From Halobaculum sp. MBLA0143 (lineage in GTDB: Archaea; Halobacteriota; Halobacteria; Halobacteriales; Haloferacaceae), in contig NZ_JBGKAC010000001.1 in NCBI RefSeq assembly GCF_041361465.1, positions 2,108,001-2,172,000 of the forward strand: a stretch of DNA of 64,000 nt. The letters run 5' to 3'. The position numbers and the translations under genes were made by a program. Below, piece by piece: positions 4,886 to 38,022 of this stretch. Numbering within the stretch: the stretch's first letter is position 1; every line of letters starts with the position of its first letter. The notes beneath the pieces are model-generated. The model did no database searches. It was given only the letters and a program-made list of their open reading frames with translations, and was not told the origin of the DNA.

Positions 4886-5530
4886 GTGACGGTGACTGGT
4901 GACGGCGACGGTTTCACCACCCAGGAGATGGACCGGTTCCGTCAGGTGATCCGCGAGCGTGCCGCCCGTGACCTCGCGGCCACCGAGGAACTGAGTGCCG
5001 AAGGTATTCCGAGTTGGCTGTCCAAACTTCCGACGGCACTACCGCTTGAGTTCTGCGCACAGGTCCCATTTGCAGACAACGTGTGCATGAAGGCTCCATC
5101 TCCGGTCAGTATAACTTCGTACCAATGTGGCGGCCTGACATACAGTGGATTAAGAACCCGCATGGCAGTCGGCTGGGGGCCGGGCGTTGAGATTGAGAAC
5201 GGAACCATCGGCGGAACCGTTCGGTACAAAGCAGCGTTGAACCTCATTATCGACCCGTCAAAGCCGTGTCCACTCGCTCTCAAGCTTGAATCCGGAACTG
5301 GAGAAGAAGTCTGCATCAGCCCTCAAAACTGTACTATTTCTCCGAAGGAGACCGTCGTCGCGTTGGCCAATGACCTCTACGACACCGTCTACGATGCCGT
5401 CAAGGACGGGTTCCAGCAGATCGGCTACGTTCCGCCAGAGCAGGTGCTGATCGCTATCACTGCGTTGGCGTGTATCGCGTACGCAGTGTTAATCGGCGCC
5501 TCGGTGCTGCCGGGGCCAGCCAGCGAGTGA
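4886..5530 (+). CDS. Unknown Cys-rich protein with C-terminal membrane anchor
   Basis: 214 residues. The first in-frame start is GTG 4886, because an in-frame stop lies at 4877-4879; nearby ATGs at 4872 and 4876 are out of frame and stop within nine codons. The N-terminal helix is charged (MDRFRQVIRERAARDLAATEE). The middle is cysteine-bearing and beta-like (CAQVPFADNVC, YQCGG, KPCPL, EVCISPQNC), and one hydrophobic helix at about residues 184-207 would anchor the C-terminus. There is no N-terminal signal. GC is clearly lower than in flanking genes. I do not recognise the family; an exported, disulphide-bonded or metal-binding protein is possible. Confidence 0.6.
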   Translation: MTVTGDGDGFTTQEMDRFRQVIRERAARDLAATEELSAEGIPSWLSKLPTALPLEFCAQVPFADNVCMKAPSPVSITSYQCGGLTYSGLRTRMAVGWGPGVEIENGTIGGTVRYKAALNLIIDPSKPCPLALKLESGTGEEVCISPQNCTISPKETVVALANDLYDTVYDAVKDGFQQIGYVPPEQVLIAITALACIAYAVLIGASVLPGPASE

Positions 5531-5624
5531 GGGTCGGATTAACCACAAGACACAGGTTAGAGATCGCTTGTGCCAATTTTTCTGTAGTTGACATCTTGTC
5601 TTGGCCATACTCTACTAAGACCAG

Positions 5625-5633
5625 ATATAAAAT
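5625..5633 (+). promoter_or_regulatory. TATA box for the DUF3592 gene
   Basis: ATATAAAAT at 5625-5633 lies 23-31 nt upstream of ATG 5656. A T-rich run at 5577-5583 just before it may end the upstream transcript. Confidence 0.65.
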
Positions 5634-5655
5634 ACAATTTTCAACAGATCTGATA

Positions 5656-6396
5656 ATGACAACACGGCGACAGCTGCTCGTCGGAGTCCTCCTCGCAGTG
5701 TTGCTGCTCGGTGTCGGCACCGCCGACGTGGTCAGTCAGTACGACAGGGTGAACACCGCAGCGACGACGACGGGCACGGTCCAGACGGCGAGCGTCGAGG
5801 AGGACTCGCTCGACATACCACAGCTCATCAACGACGAGTTCTATCGGACGAATCTCACGTACACGTACACGGTCGACGGAGAGCGGTACACCGGTCAGGG
5901 GCCGTTCCCGGCGTGGGCGTCGGGCACCGAGCGAGCGACGGTCGTCACGGTCGAGCGGTTCGAGTCGGGCGAGCGCGTGACGGTGTCTTACCGGCCCGCC
6001 GATCCGAGCGAGAGCTACCTCGTCGGGCGGTACGCCCTCTTTCCCGGGTTCGCCGCGCTCATCGTCGCGCCGTACCTGCTCGCGGTGCTCACCACACCCG
6101 GGTTCAGACTGGAGACGATCCTGGACGTTGCACTCCGGGGTGTCACAGACCAGCCCGCTCACAGGACCCCGAAGCTGGCCGACCCGGTCGACACGACGAC
6201 GGGCGACGGGGTGGAGTGGCTGCCGCTGACCGGGACCGCAGAGTGGGTCGTGTGGGGAACCGCGACGCTGGCTGCGCTCGCGGTCGTCGCCGTCTACCTC
6301 GCCGTCGCCCCGCCCGGCACCCGCCGGCTCGGCTACGCCGTCGGTCTGGTCGTGGTCGGTCTGACGGGCGTCCGGACCGCGTTCCGACGCCGGTAG
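5656..6396 (+). CDS. DUF3592 domain membrane protein
   Basis: 246 residues from ATG 5656. Residues 8-27 form a membrane anchor (LLVGVLLAVLLLGVGTADVV). A beta-rich extracytoplasmic domain follows, with the DUF3592 pattern YTYTVDGERYTGQGPF and RVTVSYRPADPSESYLV. A second hydrophobic segment lies near 128-147 and two more near the C-terminus (196-240), ending in FRRR. DUF3592 proteins are widespread, with no agreed function. It has its own TATA box 125 nt after the unknown tail-anchored gene. Confidence 0.8.
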   Translation: MTTRRQLLVGVLLAVLLLGVGTADVVSQYDRVNTAATTTGTVQTASVEEDSLDIPQLINDEFYRTNLTYTYTVDGERYTGQGPFPAWASGTERATVVTVERFESGERVTVSYRPADPSESYLVGRYALFPGFAALIVAPYLLAVLTTPGFRLETILDVALRGVTDQPAHRTPKLADPVDTTTGDGVEWLPLTGTAEWVVWGTATLAALAVVAVYLAVAPPGTRRLGYAVGLVVVGLTGVRTAFRRR

Positions 6397-28963: not shown

Positions 28964-29068
28964 ATGGAGTTAGGAGAGGCAATCTCCGAGCTGGAGCGCG
29001 AGTGGGAGATCAGCCACAGCCACGAGATCGAGCGCGTTGCTAGATCTGTCTCCGATCTGCAGGACTAA
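28964..29068 (+). CDS. Tiny ORF (34 codons) convergent with the Fic gene
   Basis: ATG 28964 to TAA 29066-29068 encodes a 34-residue acidic, wholly helical-looking peptide (MELGEAISELEREWEISHSH at its start). A TATA-like element lies at leaderless distance. Its stop overlaps the stop of the Fic-type gene on the other strand by about 3 nt. Small helical peptides can act as antitoxins or inhibitors of Fic proteins, but the opposite orientation makes that uncertain. It may also be a chance ORF. Confidence 0.4.
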   Translation: MELGEAISELEREWEISHSHEIERVARSVSDLQD

Positions 29069-29919
29069 CTCAACTGTTCTAAGTAGCCCGCGAACTCCGC
29101 TCTCCCGAGGCCGCTCTGTGCCGGGTCGACCTGTTGCTGACGCTGTAGAATCTGCTCGGTGAGCTCCTCGCACAGTTCTTCGTGGTCTTCTGCGTACTTC
29201 TCGTGTGACCGGTTCAGGTCTCTCATCAGATCCCACTGCTCCAGGTCGATCTCTACCCCACCCTTTCTCACGACGGTCTCACAGCCGAGTTCGTCGAGAT
29301 GGTAGAATCTGGGAGCGTTTCGCCTGACAGTCAAGATTCGTTTGGACTTCCTGATGTACTCGTCTGCCCACTCCTTCCACTCGTAATCGGAAGTGTGCAC
29401 TCTCGGCAGGTCGAATTCCCGCTCGTTGGCGGCGACGTACCGTTCGAGCATCGTGAGACTCGTCCGGTGGTTCGCGTTTGGAAACGGGTGACGAAGAATG
29501 AGGTTCGACATCAGTCGCCCACCGATCTCTGTCACTGTTCCGTCCCAGTCTACGCGATCGAGCGCGTCAACGACCCCCTCCAGTTCCAGCTGTTTGTACG
29601 CCCGCAACCGTTCGTCTTCCTCCATCCGCTTGTCTTCGACGACAGCCTGGAACGCTTGTAGCGATCTGATCAAAATCGTGCGGGTCGGGGCTTCGACCTC
29701 GGAAGCTAACCGCTGTGGATCCATTTCGACTTCCTCGGCGCTCTTTGGGGCCTCTGATCCGGCGTACAACACGTACGCTCTCTCGTCGAGATCGTACGAC
29801 AGTACGTCAGTCTCGGATTCGTCCAGTTCGTCGGCCTTGGCCTCAACAGAACTCCGGTCGGGGTGGACAAAATCGATCGACATGTGGTTTCTATCTGGGT
29901 GGTGGTATCTGACAGCCAT
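29065..29919 (-). CDS. Fic/Doc-type protein with HPFPNANHRT motif
   Basis: 284 residues from ATG 29919. The Fic core carries NLILRHPFPNANHRTSLTML at about residues 145-165. Classic AMP-transferring Fic proteins have HxFx(D/E)GNGRxxR; here the acidic residue is Asn and GNG is ANH, closer to the Doc kinase pattern HxFxxANKR. The N-terminal 100 residues and a C-terminal charged helical region (DRNSHEKYAEDHEELCEEL-like) flank it. Activity could be AMP or phosphate transfer, or lost. GC is lower than in its neighbours. GTATTTGTAT at 29941-29950 is a likely TATA box. Confidence 0.75.
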   Translation of the reverse strand: MAVRYHHPDRNHMSIDFVHPDRSSVEAKADELDESETDVLSYDLDERAYVLYAGSEAPKSAEEVEMDPQRLASEVEAPTRTILIRSLQAFQAVVEDKRMEEDERLRAYKQLELEGVVDALDRVDWDGTVTEIGGRLMSNLILRHPFPNANHRTSLTMLERYVAANEREFDLPRVHTSDYEWKEWADEYIRKSKRILTVRRNAPRFYHLDELGCETVVRKGGVEIDLEQWDLMRDLNRSHEKYAEDHEELCEELTEQILQRQQQVDPAQSGLGRAEFAGYLEQLS

Positions 29920-30205
29920 ATTTGAGGTATTAGTTACGGCATACAAATACTCGAGGGTAGACTCACACTCGGACTATTTTGTAGGCCGGCCCGCCCGCGA
30001 CGGACGGACCGGCCCTGTCGCCCGTCGTCGGGCGCGGACCCCTACCCGGTGCCCGGACGGCACGACGGTGGACTGCCTCGCCGCGACGGACTTGGCACTT
30101 GTGTTCTCGCGTCCGCGCCCGAGCGTGGCGCTGCCGGGCGTCGAGCGGGGTGAACGAGAGCCGCTGGAAACTCCGAGAACGGGCGTCGTGCCCGAGGGCG
30201 TCGGA

Positions 30206-36254: not shown

Positions 36255-36307
36255 GGGATGGTCAAAGAACACTCAACTACCTTTACCGACTTTGACTTGA
36301 TAATGGG

Positions 36308-36314
36308 TTTATAA
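36308..36314 (+). promoter_or_regulatory. TATA box upstream of the toxin-antitoxin-like pair
   Basis: TTTATAA at 36308-36314 is the strongest TATA-like word in the islet. It would give a leader of about 115 nt before ATG 36455, or a leaderless start at ATG 36339, which opens only 13 codons. Confidence 0.45.
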
Positions 36315-36454
36315 CACACCAGAACCTATTAACCGCTATGCTGGAAAAGAGGAATATGGAGACCCATTACAGAATTTGAGTATGCAGAGAAAAGGAATTT
36401 GGCTCTTAAGTGGGATGAAAGAGCTAAAGTGCCTGGGCGCCAGAATCTGGGCGT

Positions 36455-37477
36455 ATGCTGACGCTCGGTGACGAAGAATCCCTCCTCATGGATATAAAAG
36501 AGGGGGTCCAGTACGCTCTCTATCTTGGTAAGCAAGAAGGAAGATTTACCGAATGCGATATCCTTCTGGACAAAATTCGAATGAATAAGCTACAGTATAT
36601 AGTTAATGAAGAAAGAGATTTAGGCCTGACCTTCGGTTGGTTCAAGTACGGACCAGCCCCCGAAGATGTTACTACAGGCACAGGAGTAGAACTCGGGCCG
36701 AAGTCGGGCGACGAGATCGCACAGTTGGAGAGAAGTCGGCTGCCGAGCAAGAACCACCTCTCAACAGAAGCATTTGCTTATTATTTCCTTAAGAACCTCA
36801 ATGACGAATTCGATAGGATTGTAACCGCAGAAGAGACAAAAGTGTATTTGGAGGATTTTTATAATCAATACGGCCCTAAAGACAAATACGCTAATCAGTT
36901 CACTAGTCTGTACAAGGCCAGCGTCCGTCTTCAGCGAACGCTTGACGCGATCGGTGATGGGGGAAGTTGGCATCAGGATTCTACACAGTACTATTACGAA
37001 CTAGATAGGAGATTTCTATCAGTGAGCGAAGAGATAGCCAAGCACGACTCACTAACCTATACACTCGAACCATTTGAGGAGTATCAGTTGTTACTCACAA
37101 GTATAATTTCAGAAGCTGATGCAAAGGACAAAATATCGGCAAGACAGCAGTCATTTATCGATAACGTTATTCGTACATTCTACAATACAGTTTGGGACTT
37201 CGTGAGTCAGGAGATATCTCTTCAAACGATGCGCGGACAGAACGTAGACGAGCTTCGGCCAGGAGTTGAGGCAAGCGTCCAAAAATACCGTGAAGGGTCC
37301 TGGAGGTCAGAGTTGAATGCGCTGAGAGAGAGAAGGGAGACAGTAGAGCTGGAGCCTCAGATAGATGATATAGAGGAAATAGACTCTGAGGGAAATCAGC
37401 AGAGTGAGGGGCAGTCGTTGGACGAAGAGATGGTTGAGCAGATCTCTGAAATGGGAGCAGAGGTGATCAGTAATTGA
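36455..37477 (+). CDS. Panacea/SocA-like large protein, putative antitoxin
   Basis: 340 residues from ATG 36455; ATG 36488 (MDIKEGVQYALYLGKQEGRF) is an alternative. Residues about 15-70, with ILLDKIRMNKLQYIVNEE then LTFGWFKYGPAPEDV, resemble the Panacea (DUF4065/SocA) pattern in which a K-L-Q-K-L-L-Y helix is followed by a K-Y-G-P-V-P motif. The remaining 250 residues are helical and charged, with no known domain, and the C-terminus is acidic. Its stop overlaps the TTG start of a MazF-like gene by 4 nt. The role as antitoxin is inferred from the pairing; it is much larger than typical antitoxins. Confidence 0.65.
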   Translation: MLTLGDEESLLMDIKEGVQYALYLGKQEGRFTECDILLDKIRMNKLQYIVNEERDLGLTFGWFKYGPAPEDVTTGTGVELGPKSGDEIAQLERSRLPSKNHLSTEAFAYYFLKNLNDEFDRIVTAEETKVYLEDFYNQYGPKDKYANQFTSLYKASVRLQRTLDAIGDGGSWHQDSTQYYYELDRRFLSVSEEIAKHDSLTYTLEPFEEYQLLLTSIISEADAKDKISARQQSFIDNVIRTFYNTVWDFVSQEISLQTMRGQNVDELRPGVEASVQKYREGSWRSELNALRERRETVELEPQIDDIEEIDSEGNQQSEGQSLDEEMVEQISEMGAEVISN

Positions 37478-37848
37478 ACTTTCCCGAGTACGGGGATCTG
37501 ATACACGTCGATTTTACTCCATCTGAGAGATCCAAGCCTGGGGAGTTTGAGGACCCACACCCCGCAGTTGTAGTCCAATACACCAGCCAGGACGACAGAG
37601 CTGTGGTTGTCGCCCCGGTCTCATCGCGCGAGAAGGATAGCCGATCACGCGAAGTCAAACTTCCTGCTGAAACCCCCGGATTAGACGAAGAGTCAGTGGT
37701 AATTCTGAATTTAATAACTACTGTTTCATTCGATGGCCGAGTGGAGCCGGAGGACGATGGAGATTTAGACTCTTGGAGGCTTGGAAAGGTCCCACCTAAA
37801 AAGATGGAAGAGGTACAGAAGAAACTCAAGCGGTTGTTCAGAATCTAA
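37474..37848 (+). CDS. MazF/PemK-like toxin
   Basis: 124 residues from TTG 37474, translationally coupled to the upstream gene. The MazF/PemK pattern is clear: YGDLIHVDFTPSE at the start, DPHPAVVVQYTS, then AVVVAPVSSREKDSRS, and a later LNLITTVSFDG strand before the helical end KKLKRLF. Family members cleave mRNA at short motifs. A/T-rich codon use matches the upstream partner and differs from the host. It lies 75 nt from tRNA-Gln, which is transcribed towards it. Confidence 0.8.
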   Translation: MNFPEYGDLIHVDFTPSERSKPGEFEDPHPAVVVQYTSQDDRAVVVAPVSSREKDSRSREVKLPAETPGLDEESVVILNLITTVSFDGRVEPEDDGDLDSWRLGKVPPKKMEEVQKKLKRLFRI

Positions 37849-37923
37849 GGCAGTGTATCACCACCAGACTGGGTAAATAAACACCCCACTTACATTCACT
37901 TGTGCTTCGGCAGAATCGATTGA

Positions 37924-38022
37924 TAGTCCCGGGCGGATTCGAACCGCCGTCACGGGCTTGCTTCCGCGCGGGGACCGAGCGCGTCCAAAGGCCCGTATGA
38001 TTGGCCACTACACCACGGGACT
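37924..38022 (-). tRNA. tRNA-Gln(UUG) with a 26-nt intron
   Basis: On the minus strand the acceptor arms AGTCCCG and CGGGACT pair, followed by discriminator A. The T arm is GGCGG-TTCGAAT-CCGCC. The anticodon stem CGGGC/GCCCG closes a loop that reads CTTTGG...A with a TTG anticodon. Removing 37959-37984 leaves a 73-nt tRNA with a normal 7-nt loop, an intron between positions 37 and 38, the canonical archaeal site. CCA is not encoded. Confidence 0.92.
37959..37984 (-). other. tRNA-Gln intron
   Basis: 26 nt inserted between G37 and A38, starting ACGCGCTC and ending GGAAGCA on the RNA strand. Its GCGC segments can pair to form the helix needed for a bulge-helix-bulge splice site. Confidence 0.8.

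Follow-up and report, generated by a model that had tools for sequence, protein, structure and literature searches.

The closest described systems to the locus reported here are the PanAT toxin-antitoxin (TA) pairs built on Panacea antitoxins (DUF4065, SocA), which were surveyed in 2022 (PMC8832971) and again in 2023 in the NetFlax study (PMC10440598). The 2022 survey relied on the Pfam Panacea model at its gathering cut-off, a test that the protein described below, called A, would fail. PemK/MazF-like PanT toxins already figure in these surveys (PMC8832971). The first-pass annotation of this DNA had regarded a Panacea-type partner for MazF as a new arrangement; since such toxins are published, this pairing is not new in kind. 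We have good confidence that gene A and the MazF-like gene that follows it, found in the window (the whole 64-kb stretch of DNA that was analysed), form a chromosomally inserted type II TA module, with A as a putative Panacea-related antitoxin whose family has exchanged toxins.

The coordinates of the two genes and of the features around them are collected in Table 1. Their ORFs, lengths, strand and 4-nt overlap are all as previously annotated. Translational coupling through this overlap is possible; among the nine other MazF-paired loci first fetched, eight show the same -4 arrangement and the remaining one has a spacing of +5. The pair occupies an islet of 1668 bases (36255-37922) with a GC content of 46.6%, versus 69.5% for the window, and no other segment of that length in the window is as low. 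Third-position GC is 0.49 in A and 0.53 in the MazF-like gene, against 0.93 in the adjoining PHP-domain gene (a name that comes from reading its ORF, not from a profile), which agrees with the earlier description of a low-GC islet with codons unlike those of the host.

Table 1. Features of the A/MazF locus, numbered from the first letter of the window
Feature	Position	Strand	Basis
Conserved GATGAAAGAGCTAAAGT element, 24 nt upstream of the ATG of A	36414..36430	+	upstream comparison
Gene A, 340-aa putative antitoxin, ATG start	36455..37477	+	ORF; homologues; structure model
A residues 40-72, Panacea-like helix and beta-hairpin, K45-L46 ... W62-x-K-Y-G-P67	36572..36670	+	hhalign
A residues 142-297, long helical bundle, no assigned family	36878..37345	+	AF2 model
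A residues 298-340, acidic tail with predicted terminal helix	37346..37474	+	AF2 model, identities
TTGA overlap, 4 nt (toxin start TTG, antitoxin stop TGA)	37474..37477	+	sequence
MazF/PemK-type toxin gene, 124 aa, TTG start	37474..37848	+	PF02452, PHROG
Codon CAC for His29 of the toxin, aligned with the catalytic Arg of other MazFs	37558..37560	+	alignment
tRNA gene with 26-nt intron	37924..38022	-	Rfam RF00005, 50.7 bits; ARAGORN with introns

The islet is flanked by the PHP-domain gene on one side and by the 3' end of a tRNA gene on the other. In one congener (G173) only about 250 bases separate these two genes and no pair is present; in another (G391) the pair is also absent, and the site holds about 1 kb of other sequence with an ORF that has no Pfam match. 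The alignment to a third congener locus extends no further than the PHP gene. The site is thus variable among congeners, and the low-GC pair was most likely acquired by insertion. No attachment-site-like direct repeats were found at the islet ends. At the same site, a congener locus (L144:1706-2422) has a different gene; its product, of about 238 aa, contains an RNAVVHG segment reminiscent of HEPN proteins and has no Pfam match. Two other GC dips in the window, at 5001-6000 (0.576 per kb) and 29001-30000 (0.566 per kb), may represent further insertions.

Comparison of eight divergent loci revealed a single conserved block upstream of A, the GATGAAAGAGCTAAAGT element, also written GATGAAAGAG-TAAAGT. 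It may be an archaeal BRE/TATA promoter for a leaderless mRNA. Matches to sigma-70-type promoters were discarded, being irrelevant in archaea. We found no terminator-like site at the locus, and the Rfam search returned no element besides the tRNA gene. We read the latter as tRNA-Gln(TTG), where ARAGORN instead names Glu(ttc); two congeners (L144, L145) have copies that lack its anticodon-loop intron.

Protein A gave nothing usable in searches of Pfam, NCBIfam, PADLOC, PHROGs or PDB sequences, and the annotated stretch of 250 residues with no known domain indeed has none in the profile libraries searched. Its AF2 model (pLDDT 83.9, pTM 0.80) is confident apart from the tail, where pLDDT falls below 50 for residues 302-340. 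Foldseek found no significant match in PDB or BFVD, and VIA listed only generic helical bundles. Of 391 genomes of the class, 31 contain homologues of A, which are also present in further classes of the phylum, with plasmid copies in Haloarcula hispanica and Haladaptatus; none was found in phages or viral contigs. Three more are encoded in the genome of the window itself (L002/L081, L084, L085): PIN-like genes come after two of them, and an ORF with a weak PIN resemblance after the third. No paper naming this family was found in the literature searched, though the NetFlax data may include it.

Could abortive infection against viruses be the main role of the module, the core of A acting as the infection sensor? 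The patchy distribution, the low-GC insertion beside a tRNA gene and the plasmid copies all suit this idea, and the NetFlax study (PMC10440598) hypothesised such a role for Panacea. However, maintenance of a plasmid or island would fit equally well, PADLOC gives no convincing match and no phage or viral copy was found. We judge a mainly antiviral function rather unlikely. Read as a type II TA module, the locus shows the adjacent, co-directed pair of antitoxin and toxin families expected of such systems, and the MazF-type toxin is most likely held by the large antitoxin. A would bind MazF directly and block it, while free MazF would cleave RNA.

The toxin assignments across the A family come from iterated profile searches of the ORFs at each locus, combined with a reading of the downstream ORFs. 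Among 53 distinct A sequences of at least 260 aa, a partner was recognised for 49: 31 are paired with a PIN-like protein, 14 with MazF and 4 with a RelE-like one. The partner gene comes directly after A, mostly overlapping it or separated by a few bases. The first-pass annotation had proposed a check of gene-pair conservation across haloarchaea; the pair is indeed conserved among them, recurring in several families and on plasmids. The four other cases comprise a truncated A (L018), a copy ending 72 bases before a contig edge (L079) and two (L082, L085) whose downstream proteins resemble PIN on visual inspection and have no Pfam match.

The RelE-like partner was modelled with a pLDDT of 83.7, and Foldseek ranks RelE/YoeB/HigB/ParE toxins first among its matches (prob up to 0.99). 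RelE, YoeB, HigB and ParE also fill the VIA list, with a Z of 9.7 and an rmsd of 2.0 over 87 residues for RelE 2khe. About two dozen distant homologues of this partner were collected; many have an upstream ORF of about 45-55 aa, a few have none, and these ORFs share the ending GIEDI...SKEDIE...LKF. From this adjacency, the ORF preceding the haloarchaeal RelE-like family of about 150 aa (L089-L114) is possibly an unnamed small antitoxin. Part of the 25 PIN-like members examined match several Pfam PIN models with E-values of 1e-4 to 1e-2 (best 1.5e-4), mostly below the Pfam cut-offs. One Asp is invariant and one Glu nearly invariant among the 25, and two further members (L076, L084) are missing the usual DTSVL motif. 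A single-sequence search links the A of the window directly to PIN-paired homologues, at an E-value of 6.8e-8 within the same genome and of 1.7e-13 outside it.

In other archaea, relatives of A directly precede two further, unrelated types of toxin, and the antitoxin family seems to have changed partners. In the tree, MazF- and RelE-paired A sequences form one clade (support 99/100) among the PIN-paired ones, and the RelE-paired rows form one group (98/95); RelE pairing may have arisen inside the MazF rows (branch 82/63). The family would then have exchanged toxins, with one well-supported branch carrying MazF or RelE-fold proteins. PIN-like proteins are the commonest partner and probably the older one, on account of their breadth only, as the tree is rooted at its midpoint.

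The toxin of the window matches the PemK profile PF02452 with 54.3 bits (cut-off 23.1; E 1.8e-14) and the PHROG MazF-like profile with an E-value of 2.9e-9, so the MazF/PemK pattern noted at first reading holds at the profile level. Yet it is devoid of the catalytic Arg (R29 in E. coli and Symbiobacterium, the equivalent of R25 in B. subtilis): its His29 aligns with R29 of E. coli MazF 1ub4. This His is invariant in the 12 A-paired MazFs compared, within a PHPAVV segment or a close variant, over identities of 31-81%. When we searched 361 genomes of the class with the toxin, all matches beyond E 1e-40 were A-paired and the others began at about E 1e-15. Of 30 loci from this search, all 10 that are A-paired have His at this place and all 20 conventional ones have Arg; upstream of most of the conventional haloarchaeal MazFs lies a gene whose product, about 88 aa long, shows an AbrB/MazE pattern, recognised by eye.

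In Symbiobacterium MazF, replacing R29 by Ala abolished cleavage, and R25 was named essential in B. subtilis (PMC10893535). Because a residue essential in another MazF is replaced here, RNase activity cannot be assumed for A-paired MazFs, and a catalytically altered or inactive PemK fold, making the pair a regulator or giving it some other enzymatic role, must be weighed. The uniform loss of the Arg speaks for it. The strict retention of His among such divergent copies suggests selection and not decay, though, and two further toxin folds occupy the same place beside A. Moreover, His can serve in RNA cleavage. We think this alternative improbable.

Is A related to Panacea? The first-pass annotation had called it Panacea/SocA-like on the strength of a K-L-Q and K-Y-G-P motif, which lie at residues 45-47 and 64-67. 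The HMM search of A against DUF4065/SocA that it proposed was negative: the Pfam Panacea model PF13274 matches neither the A of the window nor any of 28 homologues at E-values up to 10, and genome searches with this model did not recover A, the gathering score not being reached. We compared profiles of the A family (54 rows) and of archaeal Panacea (39 sequences) with hhalign and obtained a score of 34.5 (P 1.4e-4, probability 53%), over about 60 aligned columns that cover, in register, helix 1 to the YGP hairpin. In controls, 150 column-shuffled templates scored at most 18.5 and a reversed template 10.0; alignments of the A family to unrelated families gave 16.3 (PIN-like), 19.1 (RelE-like) and 9.9 (MazF). 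A thus displays the SocA/Panacea feature of an N-terminal KLxxLxY/F helix followed by a beta-hairpin with YGP; in the AF2 model these are a helix at 40-54 and strands at 60-62 and 67-69. The model has the order helix-helix-hairpin-helices, and no Panacea structure (seven helices, two strands) appears among its PDB matches. Foldseek's top row, which is non-significant, is the C-terminal domain of DarG (7yk3_B), weakly aligned over the same segment of A (KLMYFA...YGPYS; E 0.42 for the chain), a match that is suggestive only.

The motif is therefore real, while A remains below the Pfam threshold for Panacea; the term 'Panacea-like' is supported by these comparisons, for a remote kin and not a demonstrated member. 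That A belongs to a haloarchaeal TA family of its own, its KLxY...YGP likeness being convergent, would agree with the absence of a Pfam match in all 29 members, the modest hhalign probability and the want of a significant fold match, but we find it hard to reconcile with the identity of motif, N-terminal place and helix-helix-hairpin order, with a score far above both shuffled and unrelated templates, and with the weak DarG alignment over the same segment, and we hold it to be an improbable explanation.

If A is a Panacea-related antitoxin, which part of it would neutralise the toxin? Its last 43 residues carry a net charge of -15 and are about 60% identical inside the MazF-paired clade of the window; between this clade and the others, identity is 9-22% in the tail and 17-46% in the rest of A. 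Disordered tails diverge fast in any case, and the same pattern would be expected here. MazE-type antitoxins grip MazF through a C-terminal peptide. In Panacea antitoxins with an added element, it is that element that does the neutralising, according to the NetFlax study (PMC10440598). From the divergence and charge of the tail and these two precedents, we propose with moderate confidence that neutralisation resides in the tail of A. The partner-specific acidic tail would be the likeliest toxin-binding segment, and the Panacea-related domain and helical bundle may act as a scaffold or as a sensor for the trigger.

A bolder view, which we offer tentatively and would not yet bet on, is that A is a Panacea-derived archaeal hub antitoxin, missed by profile surveys, that neutralises PIN, MazF and RelE toxins through tail exchange on a constant core, with a MazF partner using a His-based active site. 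If true, archaea would provide a natural series of one antitoxin family against three toxin folds, in which partner change can be tested by tail swaps between homologues. There would also be a MazF clade with His in place of the catalytic Arg in all members seen, and Panacea-type antitoxins may extend past what the Pfam model detects.

How does the module compare with the systems it resembles? Like PanAT, it places an antitoxin with a KLxY...YGP helix-hairpin beside various unrelated toxin folds, among them MazF/PemK-like ones; unlike PanAT, its antitoxin falls below the Pfam Panacea threshold, has a length of about 340 aa that includes a long helical bundle and an acidic tail, and partners almost only MazF, RelE-fold and PIN-like proteins. 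MazEF/PemIK share with it a PemK/MazF toxin encoded second and overlapping the antitoxin gene before it, but here A takes the place of the AbrB/MazE antitoxin and His replaces the catalytic Arg of the toxin. The likeness to DarTG is limited to the weak alignment with DarG, whose partner DarT is a DNA ADP-ribosyltransferase, whereas Pfam yields no macrodomain match for A. As far as we could check, what is new relative to these systems is an archaeal family below the Pfam threshold, with three toxin partners and a His-for-Arg replacement in its MazF partners.
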